Source: Brachycybe producta (lineage: Eukaryota > Arthropoda > Diplopoda > Playtdesmida > Andrognathidae). Taken from it: a stretch of 64,000 nucleotides of DNA. Below the pieces are notes generated by a model. That model ran no database searches, was not told the origin of the DNA, and worked only from the letters and a program-made list of their open reading frames with translations. The translations under genes were made by a program, and so were the position numbers. The stretch spans positions 4,588,426 to 4,652,425 of the forward strand of contig JAUPFP010000015.1 of the NCBI GenBank assembly GCA_036925085.1, in the 5' to 3' direction. Shown one piece after another: positions 18,546-37,435 of this stretch (the first letter of the stretch is position 1; each line of letters opens with the position of its first letter).

Positions 18546-19876
18546 TCAGCAATCGTTACTAAACGAAATTTTCCTCTCGTCAATTACAGGAACGATACCG
18601 TAACGTTCCTCGAAATAATCTAAAACCGAATCTATGTCGTTCAATGCGTTAAATACCCTTCGTTCGGAGCGAATAAACAATTTCTCGCACATGTACATCA
18701 AGTGTTGATGAAAAGGAGTAAACGAAACACCGAACGACAACGAAATGTTCAACCACCTTTGTATGCAATCGACAGGTGTGATATTGTATCCGGCGAATAA
18801 AGCAGGATTGGTCAAGAGTCCACGTCCAACCATAACTCCTGTAAAATAAAACAAGTTTAACAAACACAAGAGAAATTTATAGTACAAACAAAGCGTAGAC
18901 AAAGTCATACCCTTTGCTCCAGTCTCGTCCTGAATAGCTTTAAAGTCGTCCATCGTTTTAACATCGCCGTTAGCAATTACAGGAACACGGACCGATTCTA
19001 AAACAATACGCATCGCGTCGAGATTAACTGGTTGTTTGCGCTGTTCTTTCGTGCGCCCGTGAATTGTGATAAAAGAAATGCCGGCCATTTCAGCACGACG
19101 ACACAGTTCAATCGTTCTCTTAAGGTCGTCATGAATCCTTATTTTCATCGATATAGTAAAATCGTTGTCGTTCAAACGGTTTCGAGTCTGTTTCACTATA
19201 TCGCTAACTGTTTCAGGGCTGTCAAGAAGATGTACTCCGTAACCATCTTGAATTGCCCACCTTATTAAGTGAAAACAACAGTTATTAATAAAACAGTTCG
19301 TTTATATTCCGTAATCGCATGATTTTCACCTTTGTGGGCATCCGCAGTTTAGATCAACTCCATCGCAGTAGTTTGCAACCAGTTCCGTCGCATTTACAAA
19401 GTCCTCTGCGTTGCTTGCAGCAAACTGCGTTATTAAAGGTCTATCACCTTGAATGTTTTAAAAAAAAGAATTGTGAGAAAGAGAAATTATAACAAAATAC
19501 GACAGACGTTTCGTGGTGTTATATCTGAATAAATAAAATACTTTTATTTGTTTGGAATTCATTATCTCTCGCCTTTGAACTCAATACAATTGAATTAGCT
19601 ATGATCATCGGTGTGAAAGCTAAATCACAGCCAAATTCTCGAACTAATGTACGGAATGGTAACCTATGATGAAAGAAAAACACGAGACAGGCGGCCATTT
19701 ATAAACAACCGGTTGCCATGGTTACAAACTATCCTCCCCCCCATCCCTTCCAGCTTTCATCATTTATAGCGTTCTAAACGAACTTACTTTGAATATCGAA
19801 CCATAGGAGCACATATCCTCACACCGCCTTCGTTTAAAAGAGTCAAGGGCTTCTTATTATGTTGTAAATTTGACAT
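18546..19876 (-). CDS. DUS4L: tRNA-dihydrouridine synthase 4-like (DUS4L)
   Basis: Five exons (19876-19788, 19663-19542, 19447-19330, 19260-18911, 18838-18546) join in phase to about 323 residues, matching human DUS4L (317). An FMN-dependent TIM-barrel reductase that makes dihydrouridine in tRNA D-loops (family knowledge). Visible motifs are [10 protein letters not shown] at the barrel start, [38 protein letters not shown] with the catalytic Cys, [27 protein letters not shown] and [17 protein letters not shown]. The last residues are a weakly conserved tail. I chose the Met at 19876 (MSNLQHNKK). An upstream in-frame Met at 19969 would add 31 basic residues that do not resemble the family. Confidence 0.93.
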
Positions 19877-19969
19877 GTTTCCTTCGATTTCTATAAAACA
19901 GCACGACTCACGAAGGCGTCTCTTTACTATTTTATAAAAACAGCGGCGGCGCGCCGGTCCAACCCACAT

Positions 19970-20763
19970 GTCATCATTACATTAAAACTTTGTAGTAAAA
20001 CATAGAAACTTTATTTCAAACTTTGTTTCAAATTGGAATTCTAAACAGTATTTCATCTGTTCATATTCTTACAAATAGATATACATTATAAAGAAAAATG
20101 GCCACACAATGAAATTGAATGAATTTCACCGCAGCGGCCACTAATCAGGGTGTATCTTTTTTGGCAAAAAAGATTCAATGGAGCACCCACACTACCTATA
20201 TTATTTTACGAATAAAGATGATGCTCCGACCTATCGGAGCGCCCACGTTAATCCAACTTCAAGGTTTTTCTATGTTAACCTATGGAGGGCGTCACTCATT
20301 TACGAACGCCCACAAACTAATCCGACCTTCGCTCGCATCTCTAAGAAAATGTGACATTGTAATCGACAGATTTCCATTTAAAATAATAAAAAACACTGTT
20401 TAAATTGTGAAAATACGACAAAAACACTCTTAAACACGACTGCAGACATTCTTGAAGAGATGCCACCTGTAAGTATCGATTATTAAACTCATTAAAGAAG
20501 ATTTTTCTAATTTATTTTAGTTCTGAACTCGTGTTTCACCTCAAGAATGACACAAATGATTGTAAACAATTATTGTTATTAATACTTACATTATGAACAA
20601 GAAGAAGAAGAAGAGGCCACCTTATGTATTAGAAAGTGACAGTGAATACTAAGACAACAATAGAAGCAGATGTCAGTCTTTTAAAAGGGATTTGTCAGCG
20701 TCAAATAAATTTACACTCATTGAATGTTTCGAAATTATTCAACGTCAACAGCAACAAGAATTA
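19970..20763. other. Spacer upstream of DUS4L
   Basis: Three degenerate copies of a GAGCGCCCAC(A/G)-containing motif lie near 20180, 20238 and 20303. No gene recognised. Confidence 0.4.
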
Positions 20764-21563: not shown

Positions 21564-22245
21564 TGTTGGTTGGGGGTCACTACAGCTACCAAGGCTCACA
21601 AGCGCTACTAAGGGGAGAACAGCTACTTGGGTCACTACAGCTACCAAAAAAATTAATAGACCTTTTGTTCATCAAAAGGGTCACTACAGCTACCAAAAAA
21701 TAGGGGGACAAAATATAGACCTTTTTTTATCACTTTTTCGTCACTACAGCTAAAAAAATAACCCTTTCTCCCTAAAATAACGGAACCTTACCTAATAAAA
21801 CCTTACCGAACCTTACCTAACCGAACCTTAACGATCCTAACCAAAAAGTACCTATACTAACCGAACCTAACCAAACCTAACCGATCCTAACCAAACCTAA
21901 CCGATCCTAACCAAACCTAACCGATCCTAACCAAACCTAACTGAACCTAACCGATCCTAACCAAACCTAACTGAACCTAACCGATCCTAACCAAACCTAA
22001 CCGATCCTAACCGAACCTTACTGAACATAATGAAACCTAACTGAACCGAATGTAATATAAACTAAACATATTGATAAATAAACAGGCCTAAATTTTTTGG
22101 TAGCTGTAGTGACCCTCGGTAGCTGTAGTGACCCTTTTGATGAAATAAAGGTCTATATTTTCTTTTTGGTAGCTGTAGTGACCCTAGTAGCTGTAGTGAG
22201 CCTAGTAGCTGTAGTGACCCAGTTAGCTGTAGTGAGCCAGTCCCG
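21564..22245. mobile_element. Inverted-repeat element enclosing a CCTAAC tract, copy 1
   Basis: GGGTCACTACAGCTACC occurs several times on the left flank and its complement GGTAGCTGTAGTGACCC several times on the right, so the whole unit is a multi-arm palindrome. The middle (about 21775-22060) is a 10-base periodic tract alternating CCAAACCTAA and CCGATCCTAA. A second shorter copy follows directly. Confidence 0.75.
21775..22060 (+). repeat. Telomere-like CCTAACC(A/G)A(A/T) 10-bp tandem tract
   Basis: About 25 degenerate 10-base units of the type CCTAACCAAA or CCTAACCGAT. It resembles but is not a canonical (CCCTAA)n telomere repeat. Confidence 0.75.
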
Positions 22246-22696
22246 TTGGTTGGGGGTCACTACAGCTACCAAGGCTCACAAGCGCTACTAGGGGAAGAAC
22301 AGCTACTTGGGTCACTACAGCTACCAAAACAATTAATAGACCTTTTTTTCATCAAAAGGGTCACTACAGCTACCAAAAAATAGGGGGACAAAATATAGAC
22401 CTTTTTTATCACTTTCTCGTCACTACAGCTAAAAAAATAACCCTTTCCCCCTAACCTAACCGAACCTTACCGATCCTAACCTAACCAAACCTAACCGAAC
22501 CTTACCGAACATAATGAAACCTAATCGAACATAATGAAACATTACTGAACCGAATGTAATCTAAACTAAACGTATTGATAAATAGAAAGGCCTATATTTT
22601 TTGGTAGCTGTAGTGACCCTCGGTAGCTGTAGTGACCCTTTTGATGAAAAAAAGGTCTATATTTTCTTTTTGGTAGCTGTAGTGAGCCAGTCCCAG
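22246..22696. mobile_element. Inverted-repeat element enclosing a CCTAAC tract, copy 2
   Basis: A direct duplicate of copy 1. It begins with the same GTTGGTTGGGGGTCACTACA and ends with GTAGTGAGCCAGTCCC. The central CCTAAC tract is shorter (about 22453-22550). Confidence 0.75.
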
Positions 22697-23827: not shown

Positions 23828-26800
23828 GACTGGGCTCGTTTTTGACGAGAGGATGGTCGAACACCATTGCCTCTTTGATCCAGACTATCCCGAGCGTCCC
23901 GAGAGATTCTCGCATTCGCTCGAAAGATGTAGAAACTACGGATTGGTCGAAAGATGCCAGTTGCTAGCCGTAAGTAACTACGTAAAAGTACGACCTTTTT
24001 TTTCTTTCGATTTTATAGTGGCGGCTTTTGTTTTTGTGATTTTCAGTCTCGGCCAGCAACGAAAGACGAACTATTACTTCAACACGAGTAAGAACTGGGA
24101 TATTTTGAAGAGGGTTTAATCTTAGATTAATTGATTCTTTCTTCTTATTTATAGCTCTGAATACATGGGATTTGTCGAAAGGACTAAAGACAGTTCCGAT
24201 AACGAACATCTGTCAAACTTATCGACAAAATTCGATGCCGTTTACTTCCATCCAGTAAGAAATAACTTGTTTCTTACGTAATCTATTTAGTAACATTCTA
24301 ATTTTTAGACGACCTATGATCTTTCGTTACTCTCAGCCGGATGTACGATCGATTTAGCAACCGACGTCGCATCCGGAAAAGTAAAAATATTTCTCTCAAA
24401 GGTCAAATGATTTTATAACTTGGTTAACTTTTGTTTATTTGAACGTTTCTTAGCTGAAAAATGGAATGGCCATCGTAAGGTAAACCTTTGTCTTTCATGT
24501 TTTAAAATGTAAATGGCGCCTCTCGAACTCTGATTATTCTGTCTTTCAGGTGGAAAATTAAGAGAAACTTGATTATTTTTTTTTTTTAAAAACGAGAAGG
24601 GTAGCTCAATGACTAGGGTGTTTTTGTATTGATATCTTTTAAAATAACCACATCAAGCTGACAAAATTGCAACATGAGTTCAAAGACAATAAACACAACA
24701 AAAACACCAGAAAAAGCAGTGTTTGAAAACAAAACAAAACTGAAACAACTGTCAGCAATACTTGGGACAAAACAAAATTTGTGACACAACACAAACAAAT
24801 TGGGTTTTAATTTTGTTTCTACGCAACTGTTCTATTGTTGTTTTAATACTAACTGTCCATATTGTACAGAAAAGAGTTTAAAGAATGTTGCATAGTACCG
24901 GCCAAAAGTCGAAACATATTTAAATGCTCTAAAAGCTCTTTAAAAAAAATGCCTCAGGAGCGCTCAACTGGGCCCAGAAGTCCCAAAACCCCAAGGATTC
25001 AAGAATTATAAAAATGGGTCAAAAAACAAGGCTATAGACTGCTTTTTTTCAAAAAACAGCCGAAAGTTACCGACTTGTGGCGGGACATGGAATTGTTTGT
25101 GAAATGGCAGACAAAACAAAAAAAAAACACAAAAGTCGCAGAGATGTTTTAGAATTGTCGCCATTTTGTCTCGAAACAACACTTGGGTTTCTGCTTTGTT
25201 TGTGTCGTCAGCGTCATGTCGTCCACGTCAGCCTGACGTGGATCCGGCCTTAATTTTTCTCCTGAAAGATAGAATAATCAGAGTTCGAAAATCAGCTGTT
25301 CGTAAAACATCTTAAACAAAAATTGGCTGAATTCTAACCTGTTTATTAAAAAAAAAAAACAGGCCTCCGGGTCATCATGCTCTCAAAGACAAAGCTTGCG
25401 GTTACTGTTACTTTAATAACGTTGCTATCGCGGCTAAACATATCCTCGATAATCTCGAGATGCGAAGGTTCGTTTTTTATTGTCTGTTCTTCTCAATGGG
25501 ATGTGAAATTAATTTGAAAACAATAAGGAATTTTGAATTTTTTAGAATTTTAATCGTCGATTGGGATGTACATCACGGACAAGCAACGCAATATGCATTT
25601 TACGATGATCCGAGGTGAATCACTTTTGCGATTAAGACATTAATCTCATTTTATCGTTCGCTTGGATCATCATTTTATTTTGTTTTTGTGTTTTTAAAGA
25701 GTGCTCTATTTTTCGATACACCGTTACGAAAACGGTGCAATGTGGCCAAATCTTAGAGAATCGAATTACGATTACATTGGAGTCGGAAAGGGAAAAGGAT
25801 TTAACATTAACGTCCCTCTGAATAAAGTAATTATCGTGCTGCGAATAAATCAGAAACAAACGTTTCTTTTTGAATTTGAACGATTGTAATTAATTCTCAA
25901 ATGAAAATTGCAGTTAATTAAACTAATTTAGCTGAATTCCACTGTGTCGTAACTACGACCGATGTCGTTGTAGTTTAAAGTAAAGTCATTTTCCCCGAAC
26001 ATTGTTATTTTAGTTCAATACAAAACACATTGCAATTGTTATTGGGTTTTTTATATCTTCTGGTTTTGACTCGATGCATTTCGCATGCGGCAATTGGACT
26101 CTTGTCCATCTGCCACAGGCCTTCTTGGCTTCAAATTCAAACTTCAAAACAGAATAAAAATTGTTTCTGAGTATTTTCGAAAAGTAACTAGAAATGTATT
26201 GTTTTAATTTTAAAGATCGGATTGGGAAACAGTGAATATCTGGCAATCTTTCAACAGATATTGATGCCGATTGCATACGAGGTAATTAAAAAAATGCATC
26301 TCACAATACAAGGCTCTCAACTAATCGTTGTTAAATAAACAGTTTTCTCCCGAACTGGTTATTGTCTCTGCCGGTTACGATGCAGCAATCGGATGCCAAG
26401 AGGTTCATTATTAATTTTGTTTTTCTTTTTCCCTTTTTTTCTTTCTTTCTCGTTTTCTTTCTTTTTTCCCCGCATCCTTTTGAAACATTAAATGAAATAA
26501 TTGGGGAAAGTTTTCACCTGAACTGATTTTTGTTTCGGCCGGGTTTGATTCTGCTTTTGGTGACGAAAAGGTAAATTAAATGTCGAAAATCATCTTACGG
26601 CCATATCTTCGAAAACGTTGCTTTTGGGAGGGGCGAGGGGTGATGTCCAGACTAGAACAGAACAACCAAAAGAACATGTTTGTAAAAACATTCCCAACCA
26701 TGTTCGTTGTTCTGTTCGCTTTGGTGGAGTGTCCAAACTTGAACAGAACGTGTTCAAAACTTGTTCCCAGTTGGTAACCTCATAATAGCCAATGACTGGA

Positions 26801-29800
26801 TGTTCTGGGGAAATGTTCGCCAAGCCATCCAAACTACTCCTGGCCCGAACACGAACATCCTCGAAGTGACGGTCAAAAACCGACAACTGGTGGATCGGGG
26901 CCGTACAGAACAATGAACAAATTTTGTTACAGGGAACTGTTCGGGGAAAACCATCCACACACTTCGCTGTTCTGTAGTCTGGACCCACATTAAGATTATT
27001 TTAAGGTGTCAATGCCTCCTGAACTATTATTCCGTCTTTCAGACACAAAATAAAGAGAAACTTGAATGTATTTTAGAAAATAGAACGACAGCTCAATCAC
27101 TTAGGGGTACACTTTGATGTTGATATATTTCAAAATGCACTTTTTATGCGAGTTTGAAAATGACCCAAGTTTAAACAGTTGATAATTTTTAATTTTTGTC
27201 TATAATTAGTTTATTTTTATACTTTTAAGTGATTTAGCTACCCTTCTAGTTTCTAAAACACTTTCTAGTTTCACCTAATTTTGCTTCTGTAAGACAGAAT
27301 AATCAAGAGTTTGAAAATTAGCTGTTCATAAACCATCTTATGACAAAGCGAAACCGAAAAACTCTTCATAGACTCGCTGTAGAGTTTCGTCTTACGTCAT
27401 AATTTAAGTTTAACTTTATTCAAAGCAACGTTTTTGAATATATACAGGTTAAATGTCCATAACACACAACATCGTTTCTCCTTTTTTCACCCCATTTTCC
27501 TCTTATGTTTTCTCTCTTTTTTCGATACTTCGAATGATAATCAATTGATTATTAATTAATATTCGTAATTTAAGGGTGAAATGGAAGTTACTCCTGCTTG
27601 TTACGCACATCTTACTTCAATGTTGATGTCCTTGGCTAACGGAAAGATCTGTGTCATATTAGAAGTATGGATTAATTCTAATCATCAGAGAGAGATGGTC
27701 TTCGTGTTTTCGAAGATCTCGCACGAGTCAAATCGTTTCTTTTTTTTAGGGTGGATATTGTCTGAAATCACTGTCCGAAGGAGTGGCGCTAACTCTTCGA
27801 ACTCTTTTGGGAGATCCGTGTCCAGCGATCGGACCAACTGCGGAACCTGATCTGAGGCACTCGGTTCTTTTTTCTAAAGTCGTAATCACCGCAATTAATC
27901 TACCAATGTCTATCTCTGAACAGTGCCGTCGAAACTATCTTGAACGTCATCTATGCTCAAAAACCTTTCTGGAAATGCCTTCAGTTTCAAGGGACAACAA
28001 CGGTTCAGTCCGATACCGATAATGTCGACAATGATACCGTTTCAAAGAAGGTCGACATACTTCAAGATAACGACTGGACAAAGTAAATCCACGTTTTACC
28101 CTTTCTAAAAAAATACTAATCTCAGAGTTTGAACTCTTTTTAGCCACAACCCGACAATCGAATACGTGGGAATCGCACCCGAAGAACCGTTTCCCATATC
28201 TGGGTTTTACCCCGTTCAATCTGATGAAGTCAAGATGGAATTATCGAGAAAAATCGATGAATTGATCGCAAAAACCGATCTGAAATATCCAGATCAGAGA
28301 ACTTGTTTTGTATACGATAAGAAAATGGCGTTACACAGAAACTTACAAGAATTGTACGTGAATGTTAGTTTACAGTTTCTGTAACAATCGTTTGACAAAA
28401 TCAGATAATGGATAAATTTCGTTCTTACCTTTTTTTTTTTTCTCTTCTTCTTCTAACCGATAGTCATCCAGAAAAACCCGAACGTTTGATGGCCATTTTG
28501 ACTCGTCTGGAAGATGCGGGACTTTTGGAAAGATGCAAACTCTTAGAGGTGAATTGATAGCAAATGTTTATCCCACCCGGATGTGGTCAAAGGTCGAACT
28601 TACGACTTTTCCTTTCCATTTTTACAGTCACGGATTGCAACCGAAGACGAACTGGAAATGATTCACTGGTTATTGACTTAATAGTCGTTACTTATTTTTT
28701 TTTTTAAACACGATCTTTACTGTGGTTCAGCAGTAATTCTTATTCGTAACAAAGTTGACGTAAACTTTCGAACTTTCATTATTCCTGTCTATCAGAAGAG
28801 AGAAATTAGGAGAAACTAGTAAGTGTTTTAGAAACTAGAAGGGTAGCTCAATCATTTAAGGGTAATTTTCATGTCGATATCTTTAAAAATAAGCCTTTCA
28901 TGGCAGTTTGAAACAAATATTTTTAATTTTTTGTCCATAAATAATTTACTTTATAAGATATCAACATGAAAATATTATTAAGTGATTGAGCAATCGCGTT
29001 CTAGTTTCTAACACACTTTTAATTTCTCCTTTTGTGTTGCTCCCGAATTCGTAAAACATGAATTACGTACATTTCTGTTTGAATTGTGTTAGTAAATCTA
29101 GCAGCCTCCCTAAGGGATCCAAAAAGTGATTCAGCATGTGGCCGAAACCGACCACTCGCGTCGACTGCCAGCAGTGGTCCTAGTGAAGTCGAATGACATA
29201 CAAAAAGTGGTCGTATAAAGTCGATTGGAGTGGTCAGTTTCGGTGACACGCCAACCACTCTTTGCAGTATATATTTCGACCACTGAAAGTCGCTCGTCTG
29301 TGAGCGCCATCAACTCAACTTAATCAAAATCGAATTTCTCATTGTTTTTTTTTGTAAAAAAAAAAAACGTAGCAAGGAACACGTTCAAGAGATGAAAGAA
29401 ACCGAGACGATGAAACCTCGCGACTTACTCAAAGTGGCCGAGAAGTTCCGTTCTATCTACTTGTGTCATGATTCTTATAACAGTTCTCTGTTGGCTGCTG
29501 GTTGTGTCCTACAAGTTGTAGATGAAGTTCTATCTGGCCGCGTACGTCAAACAAACACGAAATTAACGCTTCACAAAACAACAACAATAATAATGAAGAT
29601 ATTTCGTTATCGGGGGTTTCCGATAGTGTCGTAACGGAGCTGCTGCCATTCGTCCTCCGGGACACCACGCAGAGAACGACGAAGCTTGCGGGTTCTGTAT
29701 TTTCAACAACGTTGCCATCGCAGCCAAATATGCGTTACAAAAACACGGACTTCAAAAGTCAGTTTTTTGTGTTACTTGATTGTTTTTAGTTTCCAATTAT

Positions 29801-32517
29801 TGATGCCGACATCTTGTTTTACGCTTTAGGATTCTGATTCTGGATTGGGATGTTCATCATGGTAATGGAATTCAAAACTCATTTTACGACGATCCTCGGT
29901 ACGGTATCGATTTAGCGTTTCTGTTCGAAAATAAAACGACAACAAAAAACGGAAAAATTAATAGAAATACTTTTAAAAATTAAAACAGGGTCTTGTATAT
30001 TTCCATCCATCGGTACAATAACGGAGGATTTTTTCCATCGTCGAAAGATGCTAATTATAACTACATTGGAAGCGGAAAAGGCGAGGGATACAATGTTAAC
30101 ATACCGTGGAACACTGTAATAACTTTGTTTTCGTCTTTATTCGCTTCTGCCGCGTTTAAGTCTATTGAGGCTTCTGTGCGATTTTGGCGTCCCCTAATGT
30201 TTGACAATTTTTTTGTATCCATCTGCATTTTAGACGGGACTTGGAGATGCAGACTACTTGGCTGCATTCACAAATGTCGTTATGCCGATCGCTTACCAGT
30301 ACGAGCCCCAACTGGTTCTAATCTCTGCCGGTTTCGATGCTGCGAGAGGCGATTTTCTCGTAAATTCTATTCTCACGATTCTAAATCGTCATCACTAAAA
30401 ATCTAGTTCTAAATATTTCAGGGTAACTGCAAAGTGAGTCCCGAAGGATACGCAACCATGACGCAACTACTGTGCGGACTTGCCAACGGAAAAGTCATTT
30501 TAACATTAGAGGTTGGTGGTTTCACGATTTGAAAATTGAAAGAATTCACTTTCTAAACGATAAAAATGTTCTTTTTGTTTCTATTAACAACTGTGGAACA
30601 AAAAAAAAAACACAGGGTGGTTACAACTTAAGATCGTTGTCCACGTCATTCGCAATGTGCGTTAAGGTTCTTTTGGGCGATTCTTTTATTGGCCCATCTC
30701 CTGGACTTAGCCCATGTCCAAGGTATCGATCGAACCGTACGTTCGAGGGTTACTGATCAGAAATAAACTCTCTTTTCAATTTAGTGCCGTCCAATCGATA
30801 ACAAATGTAATTTCTGCTCATAAAAAGTTCTGGTCTTGCCTTAAATATCAAGGTATAAAATATTACTCTTACGTTCGCACAGAAACACACGAGAAAAAGA
30901 AATAACTTTGTTATTTTCTTACTCGTTAGTCAATTTACCCGCCTTAAAAGTAGAAAAGGAAGAAGACAAAAACGTCATGGAATTGGTCGAAGGAGCCGTT
31001 GGTGGCGCAGGCGGCGGAGATACAATTAGGTATACAGAGAAATGGTTCCCATGTATTTGCTTCGTTAATTGTACGTAACAACTAATAGTTACAATTTATT
31101 GTTTCTAGTAACTTGGCTGACGATCTCATACAATTAAAGATAACAAGTAAGAATCACACACTTTGTTCATATCTCGTTTTACCCTCGCTTAGAGCCATAA
31201 CTTACAAAGATTTTTACATTGAAATCTTAGAAAAATAACTTTTTAAGAGAATTTCATATTCAAAAATATTTTATTTTTTTACTAATAGTGTCGATGGAAG
31301 ACGATTACGAAGGCTTCAGCTCGTACGCTGTCATTCCAAAAACAGATTGCCTCCATTTGAAGTCCGTTCGTCGTATATTCGAAACATTCGACTTGAACTT
31401 TGCAACAACGAAATGCGTTCGGTGCAATGATACGCAAGAGAACTGGATTTGCCTTTCATGTCATGAGGTTAATCATAATTACTCATAAATTCGTAATCAG
31501 TTTCAACGTTCGTCTTCATCGTCGACAACTTGTTGCTAAAATAAGATTTTGCGATGACTCTTCTTTAGAGATTTCTTGCATTTTTTATGGGGTTTATCTT
31601 TTTATTTGCATAAAATGCATTATTTATGCAAGCAATTTTCGCATTTTTGGCATTAGGATCATATAGGCCTATAGATTAACATATATCAGTTTAAGGTGTG
31701 ACCGGGGCGCTACCTTCGCTACGTGTCTTCATATGGCCACATATCGAAGAAATCCTTTTTTGTGACGATCACAGTTTTAAAAAGCCCGATTTTTGGTTTT
31801 TGTTTGTTATCGGCGTTTTAAAACTGCTATTAAATAATTATTTCCGAACAGAGATCGTCACAAAAAAAGGTTCACTCGATTCATTTATTCATCAAGTTTC
31901 GAAAAGACAATGAGTTTTGTTTAAAAAAAGGCTTTTAAGAAACTAAATCCAGGTACGGGTAAATTCGCTTCTTGAACTTAGCCACTTCCACAGACATGTA
32001 CAGGCGTGGCCACACATGAATTCACGTAACTTCATCTAGTGGCATCATTTGTAATTAATTTTAATAAAAATCTATTGGTCACACCTTAAAGTTTATAAAA
32101 TATTAGCCACCAAATCGTGTAGTACCTTAAAAACTTTTGAAATTCTAGTCGTTAAAAGTTGTCTGTCCGATTGTCTACGATAAAAACGAGCAGTAAAAAA
32201 ATCTCTTCAAATTGCTACGATTATAGATATTTTGCGGCCGCTACATAAACGGACACATGGTGGAGCATTACGAGGGATCGAACTGGGCTCATTGCGTGGC
32301 TCTCAGCTTATCCGATTTGTCCGCTTGGTGTTACGTTTGCGATTCGTACATTCACGACGAAGTACGTATTTGTCTCTCGTATTTAAATATTTATATATGC
32401 AAATAATAGTGTCATTTTCATAATAATTCTTAACAGAACATCTTAACACCAATCAAGGAAGTTCTACATGAAAAGAAGTTCGGACATCTTCCACCGAGAC
32501 ATGCAACTACATCCTGA
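23828..32517 (+). CDS. HDAC6: Histone deacetylase 6 (two deacetylase domains plus ZnF-UBP), 5' end incomplete
   Basis: At least 29 phase-consistent exons (~973 aa): 23828-23969, 24047-24087, 24155-24254, 24309-24380, 24454-24479, 25363-25467, 25546-25614, 25700-25826, 26216-26281, 26343-26402 or 26511-26570, 27575-27664, 27750-27856, 27924-28082, 28144-28353, 28464-28548, 28628-28668, 29373-29541, 29627-29757, 29830-29898, 29989-30115, 30234-30359, 30422-30511, 30616-30722, 30785-30852, 30930-31029, 31109-31146, 31289-31467, 32227-32361, 32437-32517. Domain 1 shows [27 protein letters not shown](Y/F)D and EGGY. Domain 2 shows [35 protein letters not shown] and GGYN. The zinc ligands and catalytic Tyr are therefore present in both. 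The C-terminal ZnF-UBP ([28 protein letters not shown]) binds ubiquitin C-termini. HDAC6 deacetylates tubulin and other cytoplasmic proteins (family knowledge). The N-terminal exon(s) before TGLVFDERM were not located. Confidence 0.95.
24515..25316. mobile_element. Dominant-family MITE split by an insertion, in HDAC6 intron 5
   Basis: The left half (CTGATTATTCTGTCTTTCAGG, 24529-24549) and right half (CTCCTGAAAGATAGAATAATC, near 25260) are mirrored ends of one element, separated by about 650 bases of unrelated, partly palindromic DNA (for example GTCGTCAGCGTCATGTCGTC near 25206). Confidence 0.6.
26343..26402 (+). CDS. HDAC6: HDAC6 alternative exon, version a
   Basis: A 60-nt, phase-0 exon encoding [20 protein letters not shown], bounded by AACAG| and |GTTCAT. 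It carries the domain-1 Asp of the SAG-x-D zinc-ligand motif. The following exon starts GEMEVTP, as in other HDAC6 proteins. Version b, 108 bases downstream, has the same length and phase. Confidence 0.85.
26511..26570 (+). CDS. HDAC6: HDAC6 alternative exon, version b
   Basis: A 60-nt, phase-0 exon encoding [20 protein letters not shown], bounded by GGAAAG| and |GTAAAT. It is clearly homologous to version a and nearer the usual family sequence (SAGFD...GD.KGEM). Using both in one transcript would keep the frame but duplicate a core strand-loop of the enzyme, so mutually exclusive use is inferred. A long pyrimidine tract (about 26415-26470) lies some 40 bases from the AG. Confidence 0.8.
26641..26990. 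mobile_element. Inverted-repeat element in the HDAC6 intron after the alternative exons
   Basis: TGTCCAGACTAGAACAGAAC at the left is mirrored near the right end (GCTGTTCTGTAGTCTGGAC). GAACATG/GTTCTG motifs recur inside. Overlapping frames are symmetry products. Confidence 0.75.
27002..27341. mobile_element. Dominant-family MITE in an HDAC6 intron
   Basis: A well-preserved copy: TTCCGTCTTTCAGACACAAA, AAACTTGAATGTATTTTAGA and AGCTCAATCACTTA on the left, mirrored by TAAGTGATTTAGCTACCCTT and AAGACAGAATAATCAAGAG on the right. Confidence 0.8.
28765..29052. mobile_element. Dominant-family MITE in an HDAC6 intron
   Basis: TTAGGAGAAACTAGTAAGTG and AGAAGGGTAGCTCAATCATT are mirrored by AAGTGATTGAGCAATC and CACTTTTAATTTCTCC. 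It is followed in the same intron by a satellite-related inverted repeat. Confidence 0.75.
29115..29300. repeat. Diverged relative of the satellite monomer, in an HDAC6 intron
   Basis: Carries GGCCGAAACCGACCACTCG, GTCGACTGCCAGCAGTGGTC and AAAAAGTGGTCGTATAAAG, then mirrored GTGGTCAGTTTCGG and TTTCGACCACTGAAAGTCG. The words are shared with the 2961-5365 array, but the copy is not tandem. Confidence 0.55.
31690..32090. mobile_element. 400-bp inverted-repeat element in the last HDAC6 introns
   Basis: TTTAAGGTGTGACC at the left is exactly mirrored by GGTCACACCTTAAA at the right. An inner pair (CTTTTTTTGTGACGATC and GATCGTCACAAAAAAAGG) lies at about 31751 and 31853. It sits between the two ZnF-UBP exons. 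Confidence 0.85.
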
Positions 32518-34045: not shown

Positions 34046-34509
34046 ATGCGCGTGCATGCCCCTTGATCGATACACGAGAAGAACTTCGAACTTTTTAACT
34101 AGTTCTGCGCAAATCCCCGACACATTGAATTTAGAGGTTTCACCAAATTTATGGCCATTTTTTCTCGTGATCAACTTCAAGACTCTTCTTTTACATTGCG
34201 CAAGAACCACTTATATTTTCTGATACTGTAGATTTTGAAGTCTGTCCATTGCCATTAACTGTCCAACTAAATCAATAAGTGTTATAATTGATAACTTCTG
34301 ATAAATTACTGACGTATAATTATTGCAGCAACAACTACAACCGAATTTATCATTTACGATTGCATTTCGTAAAAAAACGACATGAACTCATATAAAGAAT
34401 TTCTTTTCTCGTTAAGTTTTTAGTTATATTCTGGTTAAAACGGGATTACTTTTTTTTTCTCTCTCAAAATAAATACAGAACTTAAAAGTTGTCCGTCTCT
34501 TCATCAAAA

Positions 34510-37435
34510 ATGTCAAAAAGTTGCCGTGGTTTCGTTCTTCGTAATGTAATATTTATTACGACAATTATTATGTTTGTTTCTATTCAACAATGTCCTAAAG
34601 TAGAATCAGCAAAAATCATTTGCTTCTATCCGATAGCCTCCAAAAGTCACATGAACCTTTTCTTTCCGTTGTGCGAAGCTCTAGCACAAGCTGGCCATCA
34701 AGTGACAACACTCACTCCTTTCAAAGCACCGTCGAAACCTCATCCGAACCACGAGATCTTAGTCGTGACGGAAGCCGAAGAGGCAGTTAAAAACGCCATT
34801 GTGAATTCGGATATTTTTAATCCGAAGAATAACTTCGTGAACCTTCTGTTTCGTCTGCCAACTGCTTTGGTTAAAATGCACGAAATCGTCATGGATACGA
34901 CTTACATTGAGAAGTTTTGTCTTAAAGAGCTCGGCGAGTACGACTTGGCCATCTCCAATGCTGTACATAACATTTTCTCCACGGTTTGCTTCCGAGAGAA
35001 CGGTATTCCGTTCATCTATTTTCAAACGGCTAAATTGGACAGTATACTCGGTTGGGTTAACGGCGTTCCGATGCCGTACTCGTATATACCATTGCAGTCA
35101 ACGAAATTTCCATCCAGAATGAACTTGTGGCAAAGAACAGCAAACACGTTGGCGAACGTGTTGCATTTTGTACATACGAGGTTTTACTATTTGCCACTTT
35201 TGGAAGACGCCGCAAGAAGAACTTTGCCAGTAAAGGATTTTCCTTCCTTCAAGGAAATGGAACGAAACGTATCTCTCGTGTTCGTCAACACGCATTTGGC
35301 CATCGATGGGGCACTACCAAGAGTTCCTCATGTCATCGATATCGGAGGAATACATTGTACTCCACCAAAACCTTTGCCAAAAGTAATTACTGATTGGTCA
35401 CCCTGCTAACAATAGTTCCATCCATTCTAATTTTAATGAATAATTTTGTTCGAAAATTAGGATCTTGAAGATTTCGTTCAGGGTTCTGGTGAACACGGAT
35501 TCATTTTATTCTCTCTTGGAAGTGCAATTCAAGGGAGTAAAATGCCTGACGGCATGCGGCAGACATTACTCGATGGGTTTGCGAAACTAAAACAACGGGT
35601 TCTTTGGAAGTTCGAAACAAAAATTCAGAACGTTCCGCCAAATGTTCTCATTTCGAAATGGCTTCCACAACAAGATCTCCTCGGTAAATTAACATCAATA
35701 GGCAATTAACATAATTAGGCAATCGCATGTGCATAATGAGCCTATAGCACTTTTTTCTCTCGAAAAACAGCCAAAAATCAAAAGAAAAAATTTAAATGTT
35801 TTAAAATACACTATAAAAAGGACTTAAGAGGGTTCAACTGTCCCTAGACGTCTCAAAAAGCTTAAAAATATACAAAAACTCAAGAATTTTTAAAATCCGA
35901 AAAAATAGTTGGGGGTTTTTGAGGCATTTTTAGTGCTTTTTAGCACTAAAAATGCATCAAAAAGGCTCCAACTGGTATATAAAAAAAATTAACGCCTTAA
36001 AGAGACCGCATTACCGCCAGAAATTTCTTGTCATAATATTGTCAAGAATTATTCAACGATTACCAAAACGATTTTTAAAATTTAAAATAAGTTATTAATA
36101 TAATTTAAAAAATTAAAAATCAGTTAACTTCATGTGAAATGGACTTTATCAGATAGATGCGCCACCAAACAACAGACATTGGCAATAAAAAAGAGACGAA
36201 AATCCACACCTCTATTCAGATGCTAATGTTGTCAACTAACATTACTTTTAATTCCTTATTCCCTACTATTCATATCAATTATCCCACCCAGGGCCGTTGA
36301 GAGCGGGCCCGGCCACGGGAAAAAAATAATTCTGGGCCTGCAATGACAGGAGTAAAAGGATTAAATACATTCAATAAAACTGTCAAACATTTATCGCAAT
36401 TATAATAAAAACAGCTTATAATTAACGTTTAGGCCATCCAAAATGCAAGTTATTCATAACACACGGAGGAATGTTAAGCATTGTGGAAGCTACTTATCAC
36501 GGCGTACCTCTTATCGGAATGCCTATTTGGTGGGACCAGGGTTCGAACATCATGTCAGCTGTTGAAAAAGGTTTTGCCGAAATCATCAATTTTAAAGAAA
36601 TCACCGAAAACGAACTAACCAGCAAGATCCACACCATAATCAACAACCCAAGGTAAGTTTTAAGAAAAAAAGCACATGGCCATCTGTAGCAGTTTCCAGA
36701 CTGTCACGTGTTTCCGGCACTTCCTGCTCTCCCTCCCTCCCTCCCTCCCTCGCAACGTTTCATTTGGCGCCAAAACCTTATTAACAGCACAAACCAAAAA
36801 CAGACACTCGGGCTATTTACAAGTCTCGACGATAAGGTGGCGCTGTACTCGTTCGCAAAATTCCATATCTTTGAAAACAGCAATCGATTACTGCGCCGTC
36901 TACCAGTGGAAACGTATAACTAACGACGTGTATTGAGTGTCCGTTTTTTTTTCCTTTTACTCTGCGGCCATGTGATCATCAATGCATTATAAAAATTTCG
37001 GTATTTTTATGCCATTTTAAGCCAAAAAAAAAATACGTTTCTATTCTTACCTCAATTCAATAATCTGTTAATAGGTGTTTCATTTCACGATAAACACGTT
37101 AAAATAAACGAGAAAACTTGTTTTTTCTCTCTCTCAATTGCAGTTACTACGAGAAGGTGAAACACCTTTCGTCCATATTTAAAGATCGACCAATGAACGC
37201 GACAGCTACCGCCACCTATTGGGTTGATTATGTACTACGTTACAAAGGAGCGCCACATTTGAAAAATTCAGCTTCTTTTGAACTTTATACATTTCAATAT
37301 TTTCTATTAGACGTCATGTTATTAATAGGACTTATTGTTGTACTTTTCTTAGGATTATTATATTTTCTCTTTAAACTTTGTCGTCGTTTTATTAAAAGAA
37401 AATCAGAAACAAATTTAAATAAGAAGAATAATTAA
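34510..37435 (+). CDS. UDP-glycosyltransferase (UGT, GT1 family)
   Basis: Four exons (34510-35382, 35461-35683, 36433-36652, 37144-37435) join in phase to about 535 residues, full length for a membrane UGT. An N-terminal signal peptide (residues ~10-36, ending near VESAK) is followed by the acceptor domain. The donor domain carries the family signature, with FITHGGMLSIVEATYHGVPL and IGMPIWWDQGSN, preceded by SKWLPQQDLLGHP. One C-terminal transmembrane helix (LLIGLIVVLFLGLLYFLF) leads to a basic cytosolic tail ending KKNN, a KKXX-type ER-retrieval signal. Such enzymes transfer sugar from a UDP-sugar to small lipophilic acceptors in the ER lumen (family knowledge). Substrate cannot be told. I start at the first ATG (34510). 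A 749-base intron (35684-36432) holds a palindromic repeat. Confidence 0.93.
35917..35972. other. Perfect short hairpin in a UGT intron
   Basis: GCATTTTTAGTGCT and AGCACTAAAAATGC are separated by three T's. The flanking words (GAGGCA, CTCAAGAATT) recur in the HDAC6 intron near 24950, suggesting the same repeat family. Confidence 0.6.

Follow-up and report, generated by a model that had tools for sequence, protein, structure and literature searches.

Does the HDAC6 gene in this 64-kb stretch of DNA (the window) offer splicing a choice between two versions of one segment of its first catalytic domain, and if so, what keeps the two exons apart and what does the choice change? A preliminary description had proposed two adjacent 60-nt, phase-0 exons in this domain, here called A and B; translation finds the pair in place, in frame and stop-free. 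To the joint reading developed below, in which A and B are a tandem-duplicated exclusive pair, are kept apart by a distant branch point and switch substrate fit through a gatekeeper Glu or Lys, we assign a probability of roughly 60%. That A and B form a mutually exclusive pair is, on its own, very probable from the sequence, and their anatomy is consistent with exclusivity: the exons are homologous, of equal length and phase, both constrained, and laid out as in systems with a distant branch point.

The window carries the HDAC6 architecture of two tandem deacetylase domains followed by a zf-UBP zinc finger, which matches PF02148 at 74.4 bits downstream of the deacetylase domains. Our gene model comprises 25 exons from 23828 to 30852, with A and B both counted; it starts after the first coding exons and stops short of those that lead from 30852 to the zinc finger. 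With exon A, the modelled exons form a continuous HDAC6 reading frame, and A or B alone joins 26216–26281 to 27575–27664 in frame, domain 1 being continuous either way. The features are as follows.

23828..27856, + strand: coding exons of HDAC6 catalytic domain 1 (CD1), as modelled
26216..26281, + strand: CD1 exon 9 (...LMPIAYE), upstream partner for A and B alike
26343..26402, + strand: exon A, 60 nt, phase 0; presumed zinc-ligand Asp kept, last residue Glu at the gatekeeper position
26511..26570, + strand: exon B, 60 nt, phase 0; presumed zinc-ligand Asp kept, last residue Lys at the gatekeeper position
27575..27664, + strand: exon 11, downstream partner for A and B alike
28464..30852, + strand: exons of HDAC6 catalytic domain 2 (CD2), with the counterpart segment 30300–30359 in single copy
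31342..32361, + strand: zf-UBP zinc finger of HDAC6, two exons, limits approximate and set by eye

With the best candidates scored, 26216–26600 used as a DNA query matched one place in the 295-Mb genome. In the domain search, again with the best candidates scored, 15 of 20 matches lay inside the HDAC6 gene on contig C15, which holds all matches of more than 60% identity, and the remaining five were paralogue exons (43–60% identical). The single-place DNA match and this distribution speak against an assembly duplicate or a processed gene copy.

Several other properties of the locus were recorded. Exon 12 (27750–27856) seems to stop before GCACTC, that is, at a GC donor, because the frame into the exon at 27924 must be kept; this is either a sequence error or a GC–AG intron. 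Downstream of exon B, the 1004-nt intron (26571–27574) contains inverted-repeat elements with arms at 27026–27103 and 27226–27303 (78 nt, 81% complementary), and related stretches occur near 24533 and 28781 in two other HDAC6 introns; none is listed between A and B. Neighbouring genes encode a dihydrouridine synthase (18546–19981, − strand; PF01207, 115 bits for 18549–19301) and a UDP-glycosyltransferase (34486–37435, + strand; PF00201, 44.7 bits for 34486–35406), the outer limits of both being drawn by eye from the list of open reading frames. Upstream of HDAC6, 21760–22560 holds telomere-like arrays of a degenerate CCTAA type, interleaved with copies of a GTCACTACAGCTACC motif. The genome has 7,853 matches to five tandem units of TTAGG and none to four units of TTAGGG; TTAGG present with TTAGGG absent fits an arthropod.

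The similarity of A and B is far beyond chance. Twelve of 20 residues are identical (BLOSUM62 score 67, compared with a mean of −29 and a standard deviation of 12 for random 20-mers of the window), and over all offsets and both strands of the 64-kb window a score of at least 30 is reached at three stretches only, A, B and the domain 2 counterpart at 30300. Domain 2 is therefore unduplicated, as had been claimed, and the claim that each exon keeps a zinc-ligand Asp likewise agrees with the alignment, the aligned Asp in A and B being the residue that we take to be this ligand. Against the deacetylase Pfam profile the A isoform scores 298.9 bits, the B isoform 305.2 bits and a protein with neither exon 252.7 bits, a loss of 46–52 bits of family fit. 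In this segment the B isoform aligns gap-free with CD1 of zebrafish and human HDAC6 and with zebrafish HDAC10, and the A isoform with zebrafish HDAC6.

What the exons change is best seen at their ends. Alignment to solved structures places the final residue of each exon in the gatekeeper column of HDAC6 CD1 and HDAC10, a column with Lys in HDAC6 CD1 of human and zebrafish (GDPKG), Glu in zebrafish HDAC10 (GDPEG) and Leu in HDAC6 CD2; exon A supplies Glu and exon B supplies Lys. The difference in gatekeeper charge between the predicted isoforms follows directly from the sequence. It is one of eight residues at which A and B differ in the 20-residue segment. The preliminary description had stressed the Y/F and GC/GD differences, which do exist, but had overlooked the gatekeeper. 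The latter of these sites precedes the gatekeeper by two residues; it is Cys in exon A and a conserved Asp in the aligned class IIb relatives, and exon B matches vertebrate CD1 in its Phe-Asp, Gly-Asp and Lys. Human F105 and Y225, which make the CD1 site narrow, both align with Tyr here (hand count from K353). As described in PMC5454378, Lys (K330/K353) and Glu (E274/E272) determine specificity towards anionic and cationic substrates, and with the exchange E274L zebrafish HDAC10, a polyamine deacetylase, became a lysine deacetylase.

Exon choice would give CD1 either a gatekeeper Glu (A, with HDAC10-like charge) or a gatekeeper Lys (B, like vertebrate HDAC6 CD1), and we infer that this swap would switch which charged acetylated substrates fit, with the presumed catalytic residues unchanged. 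These residues, we assume, lie in common exons or are retained in A and B alike. The earlier suggestion that splicing toggles domain-1 activity or substrate choice becomes more specific, the gatekeeper being among the residues that differ and the presumed catalytic residues being kept.

By its sequence the gene is HDAC6 and not HDAC10. With vertebrate HDAC6 CD1 it shares the HDAC6 architecture and, in isoform B, the Lys gatekeeper, whereas isoform A departs from it in the Glu gatekeeper and in the Cys for the conserved Asp; we know of no duplicate of the A/B exon in vertebrate HDAC6. Isoform A resembles zebrafish HDAC10 in its Glu gatekeeper, followed by GEM. Unlike HDAC10, the protein is without the two-residue L1 insertion (P-A/E-C-E helix), the alignment of the L1 region showing two one-residue gaps in the query, and its second domain reads as a deacetylase, followed by zf-UBP.

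The strongest competing explanation accepts the exclusive pair and makes it a switch of activity, domain 1 being active with B and weak or inactive with A, which has GC for GD. The Cys of exon A, in place of an Asp found in the aligned class IIb proteins, might indeed weaken rather than redirect activity, and B fits the family profile better, but the fit to HDAC10 is equal (385.7 bits for A, 385.8 bits for B), the zinc-ligand Asp is present in both exons and the difference between them reaches the gatekeeper too. In addition, insect HDAC6 CD1 sequences presumably have a matching motif, by which A would be the normal arthropod form. On balance we consider a switch of activity rather unlikely.

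A bolder version of the substrate switch concerns polyamines. A Pfam deacetylase family search of the genome gave 21 exon matches on six contigs, which we provisionally label by their motifs as HDAC1-like (C34), HDAC8-like (C35), class IIa (C52), HDAC11-like (C87) and HDAC6 (C15); the match on C33 is motif-less and unclassified. All 13 matches to a zebrafish HDAC10 query fell within these deacetylase loci, and therefore no HDAC10 gene was found in the genome by the family and zebrafish HDAC10 searches, which work exon by exon and can miss short exons. Drosophila has one class IIb gene, and HDAC1, 3, 4, 6 and 11 are common to the arthropods examined, according to PMC7288346. HDAC10 is the polyamine deacetylase, and vertebrate HDAC6 CD1 prefers C-terminal acetyl-lysine. 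Splicing might make a single protein a deacetylase of C-terminal acetyl-lysine (with B, Lys) or one of cationic substrates such as acetylpolyamines (with A, Glu), a proposal that we judge improbable. N8-acetylspermidine was undetectable in the mutant flies of a Drosophila study (PMC9310527), which casts doubt on a natural polyamine substrate in arthropods.

Both exons look selected. They differ at 19 of 60 bases, ten of these at third positions, and dS is 1.89 whereas dN is 0.23 (dN/dS about 0.12), which argues for selection on each. The nine nonsynonymous changes comprise five in the first 17 codons and four in the last three. In a simulation of neutral drift at the same size, a small test of 20 codons, at least 12 residues were kept without a stop in 1.0–1.4% of runs (P 0.010–0.014). 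No similarity between the flanking introns rises above shuffles (P 0.70 and 0.14), and the duplication is therefore probably old. Scans for homologues gave one pattern match and no confirmed relative in viral contigs, and 14 pattern matches in prokaryote genomes with one confirmed bacterial homologue (32% identity), uninformative for exon structure.

The splice sites of the pair and the intron between them involve four further features.

26403..26408, + strand: exon A donor GTTCAT, 6.6 bits; the GTTC start also occurs at the donor after 25467
26403..26510, + strand: intron A–B, 108 nt, AG-free up to the acceptor (AG exclusion zone of 106 nt)
26409..26415, + strand: candidate distant branch point TATTAAT, branch A at 26414
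26414..26481, + strand: long pyrimidine tract of 68 nt in the AG-free zone

Scored with matrices built from the 22 GT donors and 23 acceptors of HDAC6 itself, exon A has a donor of 6.6 bits and an acceptor of 5.5 bits, and exon B combines the highest donor of the gene (9.2 bits) with the poorest acceptor scored (−5.5 bits; the lowest leave-one-out score among the 23 reference acceptors is −4.4 bits). The good splice sites that had been credited to each exon are thus confirmed for both sites of A and for the donor of B, but not for the acceptor of B. Directly before this acceptor the sequence is purine-rich, and the pyrimidine tract lies further upstream, ending at 26481 with exon B starting at 26511, a remoteness from the AG that had been noted earlier. 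The acceptors at 25363, 29373 and 30616 have A-runs, not pyrimidines, right before the AG, so a purine-rich stretch in this position is by itself not unusual in this gene.

The poor acceptor and the 19 differing bases could be taken as signs that one of the two exons, in all likelihood B, is a non-functional duplicate that is seldom spliced in or is decaying. We hold this to be very unlikely, for the exon is stop-free, the dN/dS and the drift simulation speak against decay, the donor of B is the best in the gene, B retains the Phe-Asp, Gly-Asp and Lys of vertebrate CD1, and its poor acceptor would be accounted for by a distant branch point.

If A and B are mutually exclusive, something has to prevent their joining: at 60 nt and phase 0 their double inclusion keeps the frame, and therefore another block is needed. 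Three candidates were rejected. Enforcement by frame shift and NMD is excluded, both exons being multiples of three in phase 0; incompatibility with the minor spliceosome finds GT donors and AG acceptors in both exons and no U12-type donor by eye; and for competing RNA structure, 26282–26640 folds no better than shuffles (z 0.50; local fold). Intron length, "only 108 bases" in the preliminary description, fails as a reason, since 17 of the 23 other modelled introns are shorter (shortest 54 nt) and length alone is therefore no bar to A–B splicing. The steric or branch-point rule invoked with it survives only through the position of the candidate branch point. TATTAAT is the only yUnAy match in intron A–B; its A26414 is separated from the exon A donor by 11 nt and from the intron end by 96 nt, and the same heptamer is the best near-AG branch candidate for exon 11. 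A yUnAy match lies 14–60 nt from the AG in 21 of 24 introns, intron A–B being among the three without one; a weaker candidate, CATTAAA, whose A26491 is 19 nt short of the intron end, would permit A–B joining. The tract at 26414–26481 is unique in the 64-kb window: nowhere else, on either strand, do 57 consecutive nucleotides reach 94% pyrimidine, a threshold set after the tract was seen. An AG-free stretch of 125 nt also precedes 27575, and a long AG-free zone is thus not unique to intron A–B.

Exclusion through a distant branch point is likely on this layout. Exon B would use A26414, which would lie too close to the donor of exon A for simultaneous engagement, and because the two could not be engaged together, the joining of A to B would be sterically blocked. 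The long tract would let pyrimidine-binding proteins set the ratio of A to B. With its strong donor, branch site and tract, B would be the default form and A would appear when a tract-binding protein blocks B; this order is a guess by analogy with tropomyosin, the model behind it.

As in alpha-tropomyosin exons 2/3 and OGDH exons 4a/4b, homologous exons are adjacent, a branch-point match lies near the upstream donor, and a long pyrimidine tract follows this match in sequence that is AG-free to the 3′ splice site. Unlike these systems, the pair sits in another gene, in an arthropod-like genome and among mostly short introns, and the candidate branch point is only 11 nt from the donor, compared with 25–41 nt in human OGDH and 41 nt in rat Tpm1 (PMC7969005). 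The same source gives a steric threshold of about 50 nt; large pyrimidine tracts in exons with distant branch points are described there and in PMC2991248, and the layout also fits that of exons with a long AG exclusion zone in general (PMC2991248). For OGDH, a longer donor–branch distance is reported not always to have freed the donor, and the blocking role is called unclear (PMC7969005); where the AG-free zone is long, an intron often has several branch points in use, and some of these lie at ordinary positions, according to PMC2991248. Tandem inclusion of both exons, or cassette use of either, with no strict rule of exclusion would suit the preserved frame and an intron longer than the shortest of the gene, but has little probability given that one exon alone fills the segment gap-free, that two would add 20 residues at the active site and that skipping both costs the family fit given above.

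Among the literature matches listed, none describes an exclusive exon pair in HDAC6, and an automatic pipeline may have annotated both isoforms. Systems of this kind are known; where this one sits and what it changes appear, as far as searches show, to be undescribed. Domain 1 of HDAC6 has no settled role, and the exon pair would be a ready-made experiment on it, a natural swap that gives the gatekeeper opposite charge with the rest of the domain constant. If expression of the isoforms differs by tissue or stage, the natural substrates of domain 1 would be indicated. Exclusion by a distant branch point, if true, would extend to the active site of a deacetylase and to a gene with mostly short introns, and if the polyamine version held, one exon may do here, where HDAC10 was not found, the job of a separate vertebrate gene.
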